A DNA stretch of 64,000 nucleotides from NCBI RefSeq assembly GCF_012932215.1, contig NZ_CP048788.1, forward strand, positions 62,001 through 126,000, written 5' to 3'. This document shows, piece after piece, positions 14,015 through 23,222 of this stretch (positions within the stretch are counted from its first letter, which is position 1; each line of letters begins with the position of its first letter). The notes under the pieces are model-generated. The model worked only from the letters and a program-made list of their open reading frames with translations. It ran no database searches and had not been told where the DNA came from. The stretch comes from Roseobacter ponti (lineage in GTDB: Bacteria; Pseudomonadota; Alphaproteobacteria; Rhodobacterales; Rhodobacteraceae). The position numbers were made by a program, and so were the translations under genes.

Positions 14015-14847
14015 CAGCCGAGCACCGCATCGCGCAGGGCGTCGGTGACCTCGGGGCGATGTCCGAACCATCTTTCAAACCCCGGAACGCCCTGATGCAG
14101 TAGCATGCCCAGACCATCAACCGTGGCACAGCCCCGCGCAGCGGCCGTTTCAAGAAGACCCGTTCGCAGCGGCGCATAGACAAGGTCAGTGACCAGCGTT
14201 TCAGGTCGCAGACCTGAAAGGTCGATCTCCAGTGGTGGTTTGCCGGTCATCCCCAGCGACGTGGTGTTCACGATCAGATGCGCGGGTTCGACGGCATCCC
14301 GCGCGTCAGCCCACCCGATGACTGTTATTTTTGCCCCGAAGGCCGCGCGGAGTTCATCCGCACGGGCGCGGGTCCGGTTGGCCAGATAAATTTCCGGGAC
14401 ACCAGCATCCAGCAGAGCGACAATCACCGCACGGGCGGCCCCACCGGCCCCCAGAACCAGCGCCGGGCCGGATTCCGGCCTCCAGGCCGGTGCGCCCTGG
14501 CGCAGATTGGCCATGAAGCCGTATCCATCTGTATTATCTGCATGAATACGCCCGTCCGGCAGGAACGTCAGAGTGTTTGCCGCACCGATTGACCTCGCGG
14601 TCTCGCTGATTTCATCCGCAATCTTCAGAGCGGCTTCCTTATGGGGGATCGTCACGTTTGCCCCGACAAATCCGGCGCGCGGGAGGGTGTGTAACACGGT
14701 CTCCACATCTTCTGGCGCTACGTTCATGGGCACGTAAAACCCGGCAATGTCGTACCTGCGCAACCAGTAGCCGTGCAGCTGCGGGGACCGGGAGTGCGCG
14801 ATAGGCGATCCGATCACGCCTGCCAGCGGGATGTTTTCTGTGGTCAT
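14014..14847 (-). CDS. aroE: Shikimate dehydrogenase (NADP+)
   Basis: Reduces 3-dehydroshikimate to shikimate in the chorismate pathway. The 277-residue product has the substrate-binding start GVIGSPIAHSRSPQLHGYW, the catalytic Lys in NVTIPHKEAAL, the Rossmann glycine motif LGAGGAARAVIVAL and the NADP-selective NRTRARADELR, followed by VNTTSLGMTG. Full length. It overlaps maf by 4 nt (ATGA) upstream and coaE by 1 nt downstream. Confidence 0.95.
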   Translation of the reverse strand: MTTENIPLAGVIGSPIAHSRSPQLHGYWLRRYDIAGFYVPMNVAPEDVETVLHTLPRAGFVGANVTIPHKEAALKIADEISETARSIGAANTLTFLPDGRIHADNTDGYGFMANLRQGAPAWRPESGPALVLGAGGAARAVIVALLDAGVPEIYLANRTRARADELRAAFGAKITVIGWADARDAVEPAHLIVNTTSLGMTGKPPLEIDLSGLRPETLVTDLVYAPLRTGLLETAAARGCATVDGLGMLLHQGVPGFERWFGHRPEVTDALRDAVLG

Positions 14848-15443
14848 TGTTCGAGATCTCCCCGCAGGGTGAGCCAGGACAAAAGCTCCAGCAACGGCAG
14901 ACCCAGCACATTGAAATAGTCGCCTTCAATCCGGTGAAAAAGCCGCACGCCTTCCTCTTCGAGTTTATAGGCGCCGACAGATTGGCGGATGCTGTCCCAG
15001 TTCCGCGCAACATATCCGGCGATATAAGCATCCGTCGCGGCGCGCATATACAGCCTGACCTGGCCCACGTGACGCCAGATCGCTTCGCCGTTTTCACAGA
15101 CCACCGCCGCCGACATAAGCTGATGCCGGCCACCGCGCAGTGCGTGCAGCTGGGCAATGGCATCCTCCGGCGTCTCAGGTTTGGACATCAGCGCTCCCTT
15201 GTGATCAAGCACCTGGTCGCAACCAAGCACCAGTGCGCCAGGGTTCTTTTCACTGATCCTGCGGGCTTTGAGCTCGGCCAGCGCGTCGGCGATATCCCGC
15301 GGCGGCGCGTCTTCGGCCAGAAGAGCCACACGCACCATCTCTTCGTCGACCCGCGCCGGGACAACACTGAATTCCACGGCGGCCTGACGCAGAAGCTGCG
15401 CGCGTATCTCGGATCCGGAGGCGAGGATCAGGGGCGTTGGCAT
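14844..15443 (-). CDS. maf: Maf-family nucleotide pyrophosphatase
   Basis: Nucleoside triphosphate pyrophosphatase of the Maf/YceF type, thought to hydrolyse modified or non-canonical nucleotides. The 199-residue product contains LILASGSEIRAQLLRQA (phosphate-binding start), VVPARVDEE, the catalytic LVLGCDQVLDHKG and the late DSIRQSVGAYKLEEEG motif. The ATG at 15443 gives the standard MPTPLILASGS start; a 24-residue upstream extension of the frame is not conserved. It is the first gene of the minus-strand run and flanks the putative origin, matching the maf-aroE-coaE-dnaQ side of the Caulobacter origin region. Confidence 0.92.
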   Translation of the reverse strand: MPTPLILASGSEIRAQLLRQAAVEFSVVPARVDEEMVRVALLAEDAPPRDIADALAELKARRISEKNPGALVLGCDQVLDHKGALMSKPETPEDAIAQLHALRGGRHQLMSAAVVCENGEAIWRHVGQVRLYMRAATDAYIAGYVARNWDSIRQSVGAYKLEEEGVRLFHRIEGDYFNVLGLPLLELLSWLTLRGDLEQ

Positions 15444-15575
15444 GTGAATAAACCTGTGTGCGGGACGCTGGAGTGTTACTGCATTTCTTCTGGGCAAATT
15501 GCCGGTGCGACGCAAGTCCCGGCCCGGGTGCTCATCTCACCAGGTCCGGCGGATTTCACCCCCGTGCGGGTAAGG

Positions 15576-15617
15576 ATAAACCGGCCGGTGTGCATAATAC
15601 CTCTTCCACCGGTTTAT
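15576..15617. repeat. Inverted repeat embracing the first DnaA box
   Basis: Perfect 9-bp arms ATAAACCGG (15576-15584) and CCGGTTTAT (15609-15617), 24 nt apart. Together with the two opposed DnaA boxes they give this 47-bp segment near-dyad symmetry. Confidence 0.7.
15589..15597 (-). promoter_or_regulatory. DnaA box (exact TTATNCACA)
   Basis: Minus-strand TTATGCACA, a full match to the E. coli DnaA consensus TTATNCACA. It faces the box at 15614 across 16 nt. Confidence 0.65.
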
Positions 15618-15622
15618 GCACA
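15614..15622 (+). promoter_or_regulatory. DnaA box (exact TTATNCACA)
   Basis: Plus-strand TTATGCACA, directly followed by GATTC (15623-15627), a GANTC site of the kind methylated by CcrM in alphaproteobacteria. Its left part is within the right arm of the inverted repeat 15576-15617. Confidence 0.65.
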
Positions 15623-15754
15623 GATTCCTACAATGCCAGGTGATGAACTCAATAACCAACCATCTGATTTTTATTGTTTAAAAAATTTCATACCGATCTG
15701 TTAATTTATGGGTCTGAAACTGTTCACCTGTGGGAAACGCCCCTGGTAAACCGT

Positions 15755-15763
15755 TAATCCACA
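15755..15763 (+). promoter_or_regulatory. DnaA-box-like site (one mismatch)
   Basis: TAATCCACA differs at one base from TTATCCACA. It lies between the two AT-rich tracts of the intergenic region. Confidence 0.45.
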
Positions 15764-15846
15764 GAAATCCGTGACACTACCTACATCATCATCCTTTTCT
15801 CTTTCTTTATTAATTATTAAGAGAGACGGACCGACGGGGGCCCGGA

Positions 15847-16296
15847 ATGACTGATCTGCTCTTAAACGCCTATCCCTGGATCAAGGCATTTCATATCATG
15901 GCGGTGATCGCCTGGATGGCCGGGCTTTTTTATCTGCCTAGGCTCTTTGTCTATCACACCGAACAGGTGGGCACGACGGGCGAGACCCATCAGATGTTTC
16001 AGGATATGGAACGACGCCTGCTGCGCGCGATCATGAACCCGGCGATGATTGCCACCTGGGTCTTTGGTCTGTGCATGGTCTTCACGCCGGGCATTGTGAG
16101 CTGGGATCAGATCTGGCCCTGGACCAAGGCCGGTGGTGTGCTGGGGATGACCTGGTTTCATCACTGGCTGGGACTGCGGCGCAAAGAGTTTATCGCAGGC
16201 GAAAACACTCTGACCGGCCGGCAGTACCGGATGATGAACGAGGTCCCCACAGTCCTGATGGTGCTGATCGTTCTGTCGGTGGTTGTGCGGTTCTGA
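15847..16296 (+). CDS. hemJ: HemJ, protoporphyrinogen IX oxidase
   Basis: Membrane-bound enzyme oxidising protoporphyrinogen IX to protoporphyrin IX, the penultimate step of haem synthesis; it fits with ferrochelatase and HemW elsewhere in this window. The 149-residue product has four hydrophobic segments, a conserved His in WIKAFHIMAVIAWMAGLFYLP (AFHIMAVIAWM core), the RLFVYH motif and the late WFHHWLGLRRKEF. These match the HemJ (UPF0093) family, including the histidines proposed to bind haem. GGGGG at about 15835 lies before the ATG. First gene rightward from the putative origin. Confidence 0.93.
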   Translation: MTDLLLNAYPWIKAFHIMAVIAWMAGLFYLPRLFVYHTEQVGTTGETHQMFQDMERRLLRAIMNPAMIATWVFGLCMVFTPGIVSWDQIWPWTKAGGVLGMTWFHHWLGLRRKEFIAGENTLTGRQYRMMNEVPTVLMVLIVLSVVVRF

Positions 16297-16417: not shown

Positions 16418-17716
16418 ATGACAACTGACACGATCGACACCAACGAACCAATGGAAACGCTGAACCTGGCGGATCTCAAGCGCAAGTCGCCCAAAGACCT
16501 GCTTTCCATGGCCGAAGATCTGGAGATCGAAAACGCCTCGACGATGCGTAAGGGCGAGATGATGTTCCAGATCCTGCGCGAACGCGCGGATGAGGGCTGG
16601 GAGATTTCCGGAGATGGCGTGCTTGAAGTACTCCAGGATGGTTTCGGATTTCTGCGTTCTCCGGAGGCGAACTATCTGCCGGGCCCTGATGACATCTATG
16701 TCTCACCTGAGATGATCCGCAAATATTCGCTGCGCACCGGGGACACTATCGAAGGTGTCATTAAAGCCCCTGATGACAACGAGCGGTATTTCGCGCTGAT
16801 CGATGTCACACAGATCAACTTCGAGGAGCCGGAGAAGGCACGTCACAAAGTGGCCTTTGAGAACCTCACGCCGCTCTATCCCGACGAGCGACTGACGATG
16901 GAAACGGATGATCCGACAACCAAAGACCGCTCCGCGCGGATTATTGATCTGGTATCGCCGATCGGTAAAGGCCAGCGATCACTGATCGTTGCACCGCCGC
17001 GCACGGGTAAAACGGTTCTGCTGCAGAACATCGCCAACTCGATCGAGAAAAACCATCCGGAATGCTATCTGATCGTGCTGCTTATCGACGAGCGGCCCGA
17101 AGAGGTAACGGACATGCAGCGCTCGGTGAAGGGGGAGGTTGTTTCCTCAACTTTCGATGAGCCAGCGACGCGTCACGTTGCAGTCTCGGATATGGTGATC
17201 GAAAAGGCCAAGCGCCTTGTTGAGCATAAACGCGATGTTGTCATTCTGCTGGATTCCATTACGCGACTGGGCCGGGCGTTCAACACCGTGGTGCCGTCCT
17301 CAGGTAAGGTTCTGACCGGTGGTGTGGACGCCAACGCCCTGCAACGCCCCAAGCGCTTCTTTGGTGCTGCACGGAACATTGAAGAGGGTGGTTCGCTGAC
17401 CATCATCGCCACCGCGCTGATCGACACGGGCAGCCGGATGGACGAGGTGATCTTTGAAGAATTCAAAGGCACCGGTAACTCCGAGATCGTGCTGGACCGT
17501 AAGGTTGCTGATAAACGTGTCTTCCCCGCGATGGACATTCTCAAATCCGGCACCCGGAAAGAAGATCTGCTCGTGGATAAGATCGATCTGCAGAAAACCT
17601 TTGTGCTGCGCCGTATTCTGAATCCGATGGGCACCACTGATGCCATCGAATTCCTGATCTCGAAACTCAAGCAGACAAAGAATAACGCTGAGTTCTTCGA
17701 TTCGATGAATACCTGA
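16418..17716 (+). CDS. rho: Transcription termination factor Rho
   Basis: Hexameric RNA helicase that terminates transcription. The 432-residue product has the Rho N-terminal domain ([19 protein letters not shown]), the cold-shock-like RNA-binding domain ([24 protein letters not shown], with core GFGFLRS), Walker A PPRTGKT (about 194-200), Walker [17 protein letters not shown] and the Q-loop region [18 protein letters not shown]. The ATG at 16418 is used; an ATG at 16451 is an alternative, since the first 11 residues are variable in the family. A 6-bp hairpin without a T-run (17720-17735) lies between rho and mnmE. Confidence 0.97.
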
Positions 17717-19036: not shown

Positions 19037-19052
19037 TGTTTCACGTGAAACA
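19037..19052. promoter_or_regulatory. parS: parS centromere site 1
   Basis: TGTTTCACGTGAAACA is a perfect 16-bp palindrome identical to the canonical parS sequence bound by ParB. It spans the gap after mnmE and the first codons of mnmG, with the mnmG GTG start at its centre. The cognate parA and parB genes are 2.5-4.2 kb downstream. Confidence 0.93.
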
Positions 19053-20907: not shown

Positions 20908-21518
20908 ATACAAAGGCGCCTCCTGATATTGATGTTTCACGTGAAACATCTGAGCGGCTCGCTGCATTTCATGATCTGGTGCTTAAATGGAACCCTCGGA
21001 TAAATCTGATATCTAAATCGAGTGCTCCTGATCTGTGGAACCGCCATATATGGGATTCGGCCCAGGCTTATCCGCTTGGCGGAGACTGGCGTACCTGGCT
21101 GGATATCGGAAGCGGGGGAGGATTTCCCGCCGTCATCATTGCAGTCCTTGCAAAAGAACGGAACTCCGCCGGTCATATCATCATGATTGAAAGCGATCAG
21201 CGCAAGGCCGCGTTTCTCAGGACGGTCATACGAGAGCTTAATCTGAGTGCCTCAGTACAGGTATCCCGGGTTGAAGCTGCTGCACCTGTAGGCGCCGACG
21301 TAATTTCTGCCCGCGCGCTTGCTGATCTGACGGAGCTTATCGGGTATGCTGAGCGCCATCTTAATCCTGAGGGCCGCGCCGTCTTTTTCAAAGGCGAAAC
21401 CTGGGAAAAAGAGGTCGCCAGAGCACAGGAAACCTGGTCATTTTCCATCACATCGCATAAAAGTAAGACGAACCCCGCTGCTGCCGTTCTTGAGATAAAG
21501 GAAATCAAGCGTGTCTGA
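20904..21518 (+). CDS. rsmG: RsmG (GidB), 16S rRNA m7G527 methyltransferase
   Basis: SAM-dependent methyltransferase that makes 7-methylguanosine 527 in 16S rRNA. The 204-residue product has the family start around [16 protein letters not shown], then [17 protein letters not shown] (SAM-binding motif I), a Glu/Asp pair in [13 protein letters not shown], and [13 protein letters not shown]. The segment [10 protein letters not shown] near the N-terminus is encoded over a second parS palindrome (20933-20948). The ATG at 20904 overlaps the mnmG stop; the end overlaps parA by 8 nt. Base composition is visibly AT-richer than parA: my hand count for 21001-21060 is 26 G/C of 60. Confidence 0.95.
20933..20948. 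promoter_or_regulatory. parS: parS centromere site 2
   Basis: A second perfect TGTTTCACGTGAAACA, extended to an 18-bp palindrome by flanking A/T (20932-20949). It lies inside rsmG codons 10-16, encoding the Asp-Val-Ser-Arg-Glu-Thr stretch, 1.9 kb from site 1 and 0.6 kb from parA. Confidence 0.94.
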
Positions 21519-22320
21519 CCTGTCGCGTCCTCAAGGCCCTAAAATCATTGCAGTTGCGAACCAGAAGGGGGGCGTTGGCAAGACGACGACCACCATCAAT
21601 CTTGCCGCGGCACTCGCCGAATCCGGTGCGCGGGTGCTGGTCATTGATCTGGATCCCCAGGGAAATGCGTCCACCGGTCTCGGGATTGAGATGGAAGACC
21701 GGGAATTCACCACCTATGAGCTTTTGCTTGAGGATATTGATCTGGGGTCGGTCATTTTGCCGACGGTGACGCCCAATCTGATGATCGTGCCGGCGACGGT
21801 CGATCTGAGCTCAGCGGATCTGGAGCTGATGTCGAACGAAAAGCGCAGTTTTCTGTTGCATGATGCGCTGCGCCAGACGCGGATGGATGATTTCAATCTC
21901 GACTATATCCTGATCGACTGCCCGCCATCGCTGAACCTGCTGACCGTTAACGCGATGATTGCGGCGCATTCGGTGCTGGTGCCGCTGCAAAGTGAGTTTT
22001 TCGCGCTGGAAGGTCTGTCTCAGCTGATGCTGACGATCCGCGAAGTGCGCCAGACAGGAAATAAAAACCTGCGCATCGAGGGCGTGCTGCTGACGATGTT
22101 CGATCAGCGCAACAACCTGTCGACGCTGGTCGAACAGGACGCGCGCGACAATCTGGGAGAACTGGTGTTTGAAACACGTATCCCCCGCAATGTACGGGTC
22201 AGCGAAGCGCCGTCTTATGCCATGCCGGTGCTGACCTATGATACCGCGTCCAAGGGGGCGCAGGCCTACCGCGCGCTGGCGCAGGAAATTATGCATAAAA
22301 ACAAAGCCAAAGTGGCGTGA
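21511..22320 (+). CDS. parA: ParA, chromosome partitioning ATPase
   Basis: Walker-type ATPase that moves ParB-parS complexes during chromosome segregation. The 269-residue product carries the deviant Walker [10 protein letters not shown] (residues 19-27), Walker A' ([15 protein letters not shown]) and Walker [16 protein letters not shown], with no N-terminal DNA-binding extension, as expected for chromosomal ParA/Soj. The start is GTG at 21511, 8 nt inside rsmG; the ribosome would be supplied by coupling. Followed by parB. Confidence 0.96.
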
Positions 22321-22331
22321 GGGAGCGGGAC

Positions 22332-23222
22332 ATGTCGGGTGGAACAGAGCGCAAACGTGGTTTGGGACGGGGGCTTTCTGCCCTGATGTCGGATGTGGCG
22401 GACACCGAGGAGCGCGCCGCCACAGGCCCCGCAGCAGCCGAGCGGAAAATCCCTATCGAACAGATTTCGCCGAACCCGGATCAGCCGCGCAAGCGCTTTG
22501 CGGATGGCGATCTTGATGATCTGGCGGCTTCGATCAAAGAAAAGGGGGTCATCCAGCCCCTGATCGTACGGGCGCTGGCAAACGGACGCTATGAGATTGT
22601 TGCGGGGGAGCGACGCTGGCGCGCAGCACAGATGGCAAAGCTGCATGAACTGCCGGTCATCGTGCGGCAGTTTTCCGATGTTGAAGTGCTCGAAGTGGCG
22701 ATCATCGAAAACATTCAGCGCGCCGATCTGAATGCGGTGGAAGAGGCCGCCGGCTACCGGCGGCTGATGGATGAATTTGGTCACACTCAGGAGAAGATGG
22801 CCGAGGCGCTTGGCAAAAGTCGAAGCCATATTGCGAACCTGCTGCGGTTGCTGAACCTGCCGGAATCAGTTCTGGACATGGTCCGCGGCGATACGCTGAG
22901 CGCGGGACATGCGCGGGCGCTGATCGGTTCCGACGACCCGCTGGCGCTGGCAAAGCAGATCATCAAAGGCGGGCTGTCCGTGCGCGCCACGGAAGCGCTG
23001 GTGAAAAAGGCCCAGGCCGGCGGTGACGAGGACAAACCGAAGAAAGCTGCTCCACCTGCGAAGGATGCAGATACCAAAGCGCTTGAGGGGGATCTTTCCG
23101 CGACGCTGGGGATGAAGGTTGAGCTTACCCATAAGCCGGGCGGCGAAAAGGGGCAGATAACACTGCACTATTCATCGCTGGAAGAGCTGGATGAGCTTTG
23201 CCGGATCCTGAGCGGAAACTAA
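22332..23222 (+). CDS. parB: ParB, chromosome partitioning CTPase/DNA-binding protein
   Basis: Binds parS and spreads as a CTP-dependent clamp. The 296-residue product starts with the typical KRGLGRGLSALMSD tail that stimulates ParA, then ISPNPDQPRKRF, the CTP-binding GERRWRAAQ, ENIQRADLNAVEEA, and the helix-turn-helix (TQEKMAEALGKSRSHIANLLR), with a C-terminal dimerisation domain (ITLHYSSLEELDELCRIL). The ATG at 22332 is chosen over the GTG at 22317 because GGGAG (22321-22325) is 6 nt upstream. Its stop overlaps the convergent hemW stop by 4 nt. Two matching parS sites are upstream. Confidence 0.96.
   Translation: MSGGTERKRGLGRGLSALMSDVADTEERAATGPAAAERKIPIEQISPNPDQPRKRFADGDLDDLAASIKEKGVIQPLIVRALANGRYEIVAGERRWRAAQMAKLHELPVIVRQFSDVEVLEVAIIENIQRADLNAVEEAAGYRRLMDEFGHTQEKMAEALGKSRSHIANLLRLLNLPESVLDMVRGDTLSAGHARALIGSDDPLALAKQIIKGGLSVRATEALVKKAQAGGDEDKPKKAAPPAKDADTKALEGDLSATLGMKVELTHKPGGEKGQITLHYSSLEELDELCRILSGN

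Follow-up and report, generated by a model that had tools for sequence, protein, structure and literature searches.

A probable chromosomal origin between maf and hemJ in Roseobacter ponti and a possible variant of the DnaA-trios in Alphaproteobacteria

The window analyzed here is a stretch of 64,000 nucleotides (C1:62001-126000) from Roseobacter ponti, the genome of which consists of two contigs with 3,962,631 bases, 3,861,689 of them in contig C1. At positions 15443 to 15846 of the window (C1:77443-77846), a gap separates two divergent genes, as the preliminary description of this DNA had it: maf on the left (14844 to 15443, minus strand, PF02545) and hemJ on the right (15847 to 16296, plus strand, PF03653 and TIGR00701). 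Pfam matches identified maf, aroE, coaE, an RNase_T exonuclease (dnaQ), secB, hemJ, and rho (16418 to 17716, plus strand, PF07497, PF07498, and PF00006) near the gap, and mnmE, mnmG, rsmG, and the ParB domain exceeded the NCBIfam cut-offs in the window (parB, 22317 to 23222, plus strand, above the cut-off of TIGR00180). The parA-like ATPase (21511 to 22320, plus strand) was assigned from ParA-family matches below the curated cut-offs and from its position before parB. The two blocks known to flank the Caulobacter origin, maf-aroE-coaE-dnaQ-secB and rho-mnmE-mnmG-rsmG-parAB, are both in place, parA being the weaker assignment. A scan of the whole window with Rfam gave no match. The contig itself starts with dnaA (its product confirmed as DnaA by a match to solved DnaA structures), followed by what appear by eye to be dnaN, recF, and gyrB. 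By HemJ, the nearest named relatives belong to Roseobacter, with 96% to a Roseobacter MAG.

The Caulobacter/Rickettsia type of alphaproteobacterial origin has the order hemE, origin, RP001/PPRP. The window resembles this type in that the gap lies beside the same two gene blocks and has few, weak boxes, but its junction lacks hemE and PPRP, and no TTAA-N7-TTAA CtrA site was found anywhere in the window. The only match to PF01208 (HemE family) in the genome is at C1:3490456, not beside the gap, and PF03618 (PPRP) has no match in the genome; with both genes missing there, hemJ is the neighbor. This had been regarded as unusual, a judgement that does not hold within the family, where the order maf-gap-hemJ was found in 109 of the 110 Rhodobacteraceae loci fetched. 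These loci were chosen by HemJ (the best 30, the window included as L021, plus 80 that were kept), and the single exception, which was excluded, is a locus at a contig end without maf (L090). In other families of the class, hemE lies upstream of hemJ in 36 of 40 sampled loci, the other 4 having no hemE match. A long open reading frame (ORF) lies between maf and hemE in 25 of the 28 loci of other Alphaproteobacteria that have both genes, although some of these ORFs have the opposite orientation and probably do not represent genes; all 10 of those scanned, chosen for their PPRP-like look, matched PF03618.

Four DnaA boxes were found at the gap. The first, TTATTCACA (15443 to 15451, minus strand), is an exact box of the TTATNCACA type that overlaps the first base of maf and had been overlooked before. 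The other three, two exact copies of TTATGCACA (15589 to 15597, minus strand, and 15614 to 15622, plus strand) and one TAATCCACA (15755 to 15763, plus strand), are those already announced in the preliminary description. Exact TTATNCACA occurs 3 times in the window versus 0.64 expected, a count reached in 1 of 100 shuffles, and 46 times in the whole genome versus 32 for the reversed control pattern. The sites at 15443, 15589, and 15614, which lie within 180 bp, are the only three among those 46 that fall within 200 bp of each other. Exact boxes are clustered more densely in the maf-hemJ gap than anywhere else in the genome; a locus with far denser boxes had been named earlier as evidence against an origin here, and none with denser exact boxes turned up genome-wide. 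The AT-rich runs that had been noted are also present: the gap has a GC content of 48% and contains the most AT-rich 60-mers of the window (15649 to 15710, starting at 15649 to 15651, 46 of 60 A/T), without sequence conservation across 13 aligned Roseobacter-group gaps (mean max-frequency 0.51). Repeats in the gap amount to two short inverted pairs, with no direct repeats, and neither CtrA nor IHF patterns were found within it. A GANTC motif (15623 to 15627) directly follows the box at 15614 to 15622, a possible methylation site beside a DnaA box.

Two exact parS sites (TGTTTCACGTGAAACA) lie 3.2 and 5.1 kb to the right of the gap, at 19037 to 19052 and at 20933 to 20948, and they are the only places in the genome that match the 14-base core with at most one mismatch. 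Both sit at the start of a coding gene (mnmG and rsmG, respectively).

GC skew, sampled in 20-kb pieces every 200 kb, was positive in 9 of 9 samples from 200 kb to 1.8 Mb and negative in 7 of 7 from 2.0 to 3.2 Mb (near zero from 3.0 Mb), and the samples at 3.4, 3.6, and 3.8 Mb were at zero or deviated from it slightly in either direction; skew is weak along the left arm. A skew minimum at the gap, proposed earlier as a check of the origin, was not recovered when all bases were used, since in a densely covered stretch that begins at 3.5 Mb, crosses the contig joint, and ends at 126 kb (lacking the final 1,689 bases of C1) the cumulative minimum was at C1:3841250, approximately 98 kb to the left. 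The switch appeared at the gap only with 4-fold degenerate sites and the gene strand modelled (428 crudely called ORFs in the same stretch), when the best change point was C1:77847, the first base of hemJ, with a log-likelihood ratio (LLR) of 70.6. Mean 4-fold skew goes from -0.018 (62.0 to 77.7 kb) to +0.141 (77.7 to 95 kb), but the peak is broad, with LLR values of 66.4 to 67.7 at 45 to 50 kb (45.0, 50.0, and 50.5) and of 66.7 to 68.8 at 76.8 to 83.5 kb (76.8, 81.0, and 83.5). The distance of the all-base minimum and the breadth of this peak count against an origin in the gap, as does a dif-like site (C1:1797832-1797855, a single match with 3 mismatches) approximately 210 kb away from the position that faces the gap across the chromosome. 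An origin located elsewhere, at dnaA (C1:1) or near C1:3841250, with the gap left as an old synteny mark, would fit the all-base minimum and the 4-fold skew, which has small positive values at C1:1-30000 (+0.049) and at 3.80 to 3.862 Mb (+0.011). However, the change-point LLR drops to 55.0 near 3,841,300 and to 50.2 at dnaA, exact TTATNCACA is absent from the contig start to 19.4 kb and from 3.73 Mb to the contig end, and the parS sites and the box cluster are found at the gap and not at those places, so that such a location seems very unlikely. The minimum at 3,841,250 is possibly noise of the weak left arm or the trace of an old rearrangement. Considering gene order, the box cluster, the nearby parS sites, the broad skew switch of the strand-aware analysis, and the conservation described below, the earlier proposal that the maf-hemJ gap is the chromosomal oriC is very probably correct.

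The 109 gaps (some from the same species, named and unnamed; 96 after dereplication for statistics) are 358 to 475 bp long, with medians of 409 bp for length and 0.471 for GC content. In the 79 named loci, strict boxes number 45 in 32,712 bp of gap sequence versus 8 in 916,686 bp of flanks, a 158-fold higher density. Even so, strict boxes had to be rejected as a conserved feature, since they are missing from 60 of the 109 gaps, a count that also speaks against the origin reading. What is conserved differs from box to box. Among the 13 aligned Roseobacter-group gaps (the window included), the place of the box at 15443 is box-like in most, and the two TTATGCACA places are box-like with varied letters, a variable box being recognizable by eye in 12 of 13 gaps at 15589 (lost in L112) and in all 13 at 15614. 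In the TAATCCACA box, 9 of 9 letters are invariant in these gaps. The best-kept part of the gap is this box together with a spacer, a period-3 tract, CTACCTACATCATCATCC (15777 to 15794, plus strand, 10 of 18 letters invariant), interpreted here as bottom-strand DnaA-trios, and a T-rich and then AT-rich stretch (15795 to 15823, plus strand, 11 of 29 letters invariant, mean max-frequency 0.89) that is likely the unwinding region. Over the whole family, 45 of the 109 gaps need two or more mismatches to anchor TAATCCACA; gaps were therefore anchored on the tract first and then on the box alone to avoid circularity.

The same element is found in other surroundings. In a sample of 120 genomes of the family (R. 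ponti included), 92 have a close HemJ, 20 have weak matches only, and 8 have none. Of 22 genomes searched, two with only weak maf matches (G069 and G090) were set aside, and in the remaining 20, those with weak HemJ matches (L283 to L302), maf is followed by rho across 433 to 574 bp. Exact TAATCCACA is present in 7 of these 20 gaps, and 11 combine a box with 4 or more of 5 C-first units, versus 0.8 expected from shuffles; the other 9 did not pass. The element is common to positions before hemE (other Alphaproteobacteria), before hemJ, and before rho (where no close HemJ was found). Taken with the junctions of the other families, this shows that the neighboring genes were lost or moved while the gap stayed. 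In the window the element ends 24 nt upstream of the hemJ start codon, which would suit a promoter or a leader belonging to the next gene, but with hemE, hemJ, or rho following it depending on the lineage, this explanation is extremely improbable, and a hemJ leader in particular was rejected.

The basal unwinding system of B. subtilis (BUS) comprises DnaA-boxes 6/7, a GC-rich motif, and DnaA-trios (PMC8287927, PMC10721633, PMC8235120); the sequence between box and trios is GGCC (PMC8235120), described as a GC-rich 5-mer in PMC10316083, and a trio 3'-GAT-5' reads 5'-CTA-3' on the opposite strand (PMC8235120). The alphaproteobacterial element resembles it in having one or more boxes, a GC-rich spacer, a period-3 tract, and an AT-rich region on the same strand, with a GGCC-like 4-nt spacer in relatives. 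The weak box KMRTCCCSM of C. crescentus (PMC8235120) is also similar to upstream boxes of the sampled Alphaproteobacteria, such as TAATCCCCG. In the window itself the tract has five C-first units starting at 15781, 17 nt past the TAATCCACA box, and one base more than in most close relatives, and unlike in the BUS no second tandem box is visible by eye between 15764 and 15776.

The register of the tract could be fixed on the box in 70 of the 109 gaps (58 dereplicated), of which 48 have a T-run landmark, with the box near in 19 and far in 29; the other 10 were dropped. In the 19 box-adjacent gaps, positions +1 to +4 read G (84%), G (58%), C (68%), and C (84%). They are followed by C at +5, +8, +11, +14, +17, and +20 (74, 68, 79, 95, 84, and 79%), by A at +6, +9, +12, +15, and +18 (53, 95, 89, 74, and 74%), and the last base of the unit is usually A or T. 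In the 29 gaps with the box one step upstream, C is found at +14 (97%), +17 (83%), +23 (66%), and +26 (62%), and +20 is mostly A (69%). Given the GGCC-like 4-nt spacer and the C-first units after the box in relatives, strand, order, and register all agree with the BUS. The longest period-3 runs after the box exceed those of shuffles with z values of 17.4 for C, 15.4 for A, and 12.3 for T in 86 of the 96 dereplicated Rhodobacteraceae gaps, and of 14.3, 6.6, and 3.4, respectively, in 26 of 36 loci of other Alphaproteobacteria (single letters, not dinucleotides, were shuffled). The base after C in the C runs is A in 143 cases, T in 64, C in 22, and G in 3 in Rhodobacteraceae, and A in 41, T in 40, C in 41, and G in 4 in the other Alphaproteobacteria, in counts that select tracts by C and are hence biased for C and unbiased for the other two positions.

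A simple repeat of low stability, melting readily without DnaA reading its individual bases, would agree with the adjoining T-rich run, with units that vary by lineage (CTA, CAA, CCA, and CAT), and with the variable length of the tract. Nevertheless, slippage would not hold the phase with the box, whereas in the box-set register C recurs every third base from +5 to +20 in the 19 dereplicated gaps, and C runs exceed single-letter shuffles both within and outside Rhodobacteraceae. We consider this explanation unlikely.

More serious is the possibility that the tract consists of ordinary DnaA-trios with a middle adenine, read in an A-W-C register (top-strand middle T) after a spacer of approximately 8 nt, and that the code is unchanged. 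T runs would mark the middle adenine on the captured strand, and they are above shuffles in Rhodobacteraceae, as given above; in the A-W-C register the middle T at +10, +13, +16, and +19 reaches 53, 63, 63, and 84%, and 209 of 281 A-N-C units have it. The published rule for the BUS (a box, a spacer of 0 to 16 nt, and at least three trios with middle adenine, (NAN)3) is passed by 89 of the 109 gaps versus 24.0 in shuffles, but a C-first rule by only 48 versus 0.6, which also argues against a changed code. Several observations point the other way. In the A-W-C register the uncaptured base (C, 79 to 95%) would be more strongly conserved than the middle one, contrary to what the structure predicts; the CAA/CCA tracts of other Alphaproteobacteria (L153, L156, L183, and L185) have hardly any middle T, in line with the low z value for T next to that for C outside Rhodobacteraceae; and the 4-nt GGCC-like spacer favors the C-first register. 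An unchanged code remains a substantial minority possibility in our judgement. In the window, the TAATCCACA box passes neither rule within 16 nt, and the box at 15589 passes the published one weakly, with 3 trios (seen in 24% of shuffles). The failure at TAATCCACA, like the 17-nt distance of the C-first run and its extra base, counts against a changed code. It counts against the origin reading as well, as does the fact that a loose pattern, CCACA-N3-20-CATCATCATC, has four matches in the genome, so that the gap is not unique (the reversed control has none). The other three places are C1:2552479, C1:3286501, and C1:3571856.

In the B. subtilis structure, Arg202 and Glu228 hold the guanine of the trio, and Asn187 and Glu183 hold its middle adenine; C is also functional in the middle, while G and T work poorly (PMC10721633). 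In an alignment, the DnaA of R. ponti has K at 202, E at 228, and Tyr instead of Asn at 187. Residue 228 is E and residue 202 is K or R in all sampled sequences, so the contacts to the trio guanine are kept in the Alphaproteobacteria as in the BUS. At residue 187, by contrast with B. subtilis, nearly all sampled Alphaproteobacteria have Tyr or Phe: 28 Y and 2 F in 30 Rhodobacteraceae, and 26 Y, 2 F, and 1 R in 29 distinct other Alphaproteobacteria (after repeated genomes, L225 to L228, were removed by hand). The 24 best-scoring loci of other classes of the phylum, several of which share a genus, have T in 11, N in 11, and A in 2, and E. coli has Q; the equivalent residue is N in Thermotoga maritima and Q in A. 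aeolicus. The presence of T and A in other proteobacteria, where Asn is not general, weakens the link between Tyr187 and the trios. Most alphaproteobacterial trios also differ from those of the BUS in lacking the middle adenine on the captured strand, and the T that stands there in Rhodobacteraceae is poorly used by the DnaA of B. subtilis.

Taken together, these patterns suggest, tentatively, that Alphaproteobacteria use a changed DnaA-trio code. The first guanine may still be captured, through the retained contacts at 202 and 228, with an aromatic residue in place of Asn187; the middle base might be free in the class as a whole, in which A, T, and C are about equally frequent on the top strand, and in Rhodobacteraceae the captured-strand middle could be mostly thymine (3'-GTW-5'). 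We lean slightly to the changed code over the canonical A-W-C reading, because the C-first register conserves the structurally captured bases and lets the free one vary, while the other register does the reverse, and because of the CAA/CCA tracts mentioned above. The origin itself is ordinary; the trio variant is the point of interest. If the variant is real, origin opening in a whole class would rest on base contacts unlike those of Bacillus, and a class-wide candidate with a matching change in a contact residue would make the base-capture model testable by swapping one residue and one base.

Base contacts for DnaA origin opening have been described for Bacillus (PMC10721633), where it was also suggested that DnaA homologs might read a range of sequences, and the BUS authors suspected deviant trios lacking the middle adenine (PMC8287927). 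No account of alphaproteobacterial trios or of Tyr at 187 was seen in the portions consulted of the DnaA-trio literature, including PMC8287927, PMC10721633, PMC8235120, PMC10225481, and PMC10316083. The DUE of T. maritima, with its TAG eTrio, is similar in having trinucleotide repeats near the boxes that are needed for single-strand binding by DnaA (PMC10316083), but, unlike the Alphaproteobacteria, it retains TAG, that is 3'-GAT-5' (PMC10316083), along with Asn at the 187 position. Origins of the same family have been predicted by Ori-Finder in 101 of 109 strains with DnaA boxes, GC disparity, and nearness to parAB as criteria (PMC6699656), criteria close to those applied here; the text examined from that study does not contain the junction genes or a trio element.

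We infer, with good though somewhat lower confidence than for the origin as such, that the gap is an oriC with a BUS-like opening. DnaA would bind the boxes at 15443, 15589, 15614, and 15755, and an oligomer might then spread rightwards from the invariant TAATCCACA onto the bottom strand of the tract at 15777 to 15794, as at the Bacillus BUS, and open the T-rich stretch to about 15823, the presumed place of unwinding. Helicases would load there, forks would travel out in both directions, and the new origins would be moved apart by ParB bound to parS at 19037 and 20933. The components read directly from the DNA are the boxes, the tract, the parS sites, the skew switch, synteny, and conservation. 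A box followed by GGCC and C-first triplets is also a candidate mark for locating alphaproteobacterial origins that have few strict boxes, such as the gaps of this family without any. Many relatives have a second tandem box, and which of the two is retained seems to depend on the lineage, the upstream one in Roseobacter-like gaps and the downstream one in Rhodobacter-like gaps (L065, L067, and L116 compared with L051 to L058).
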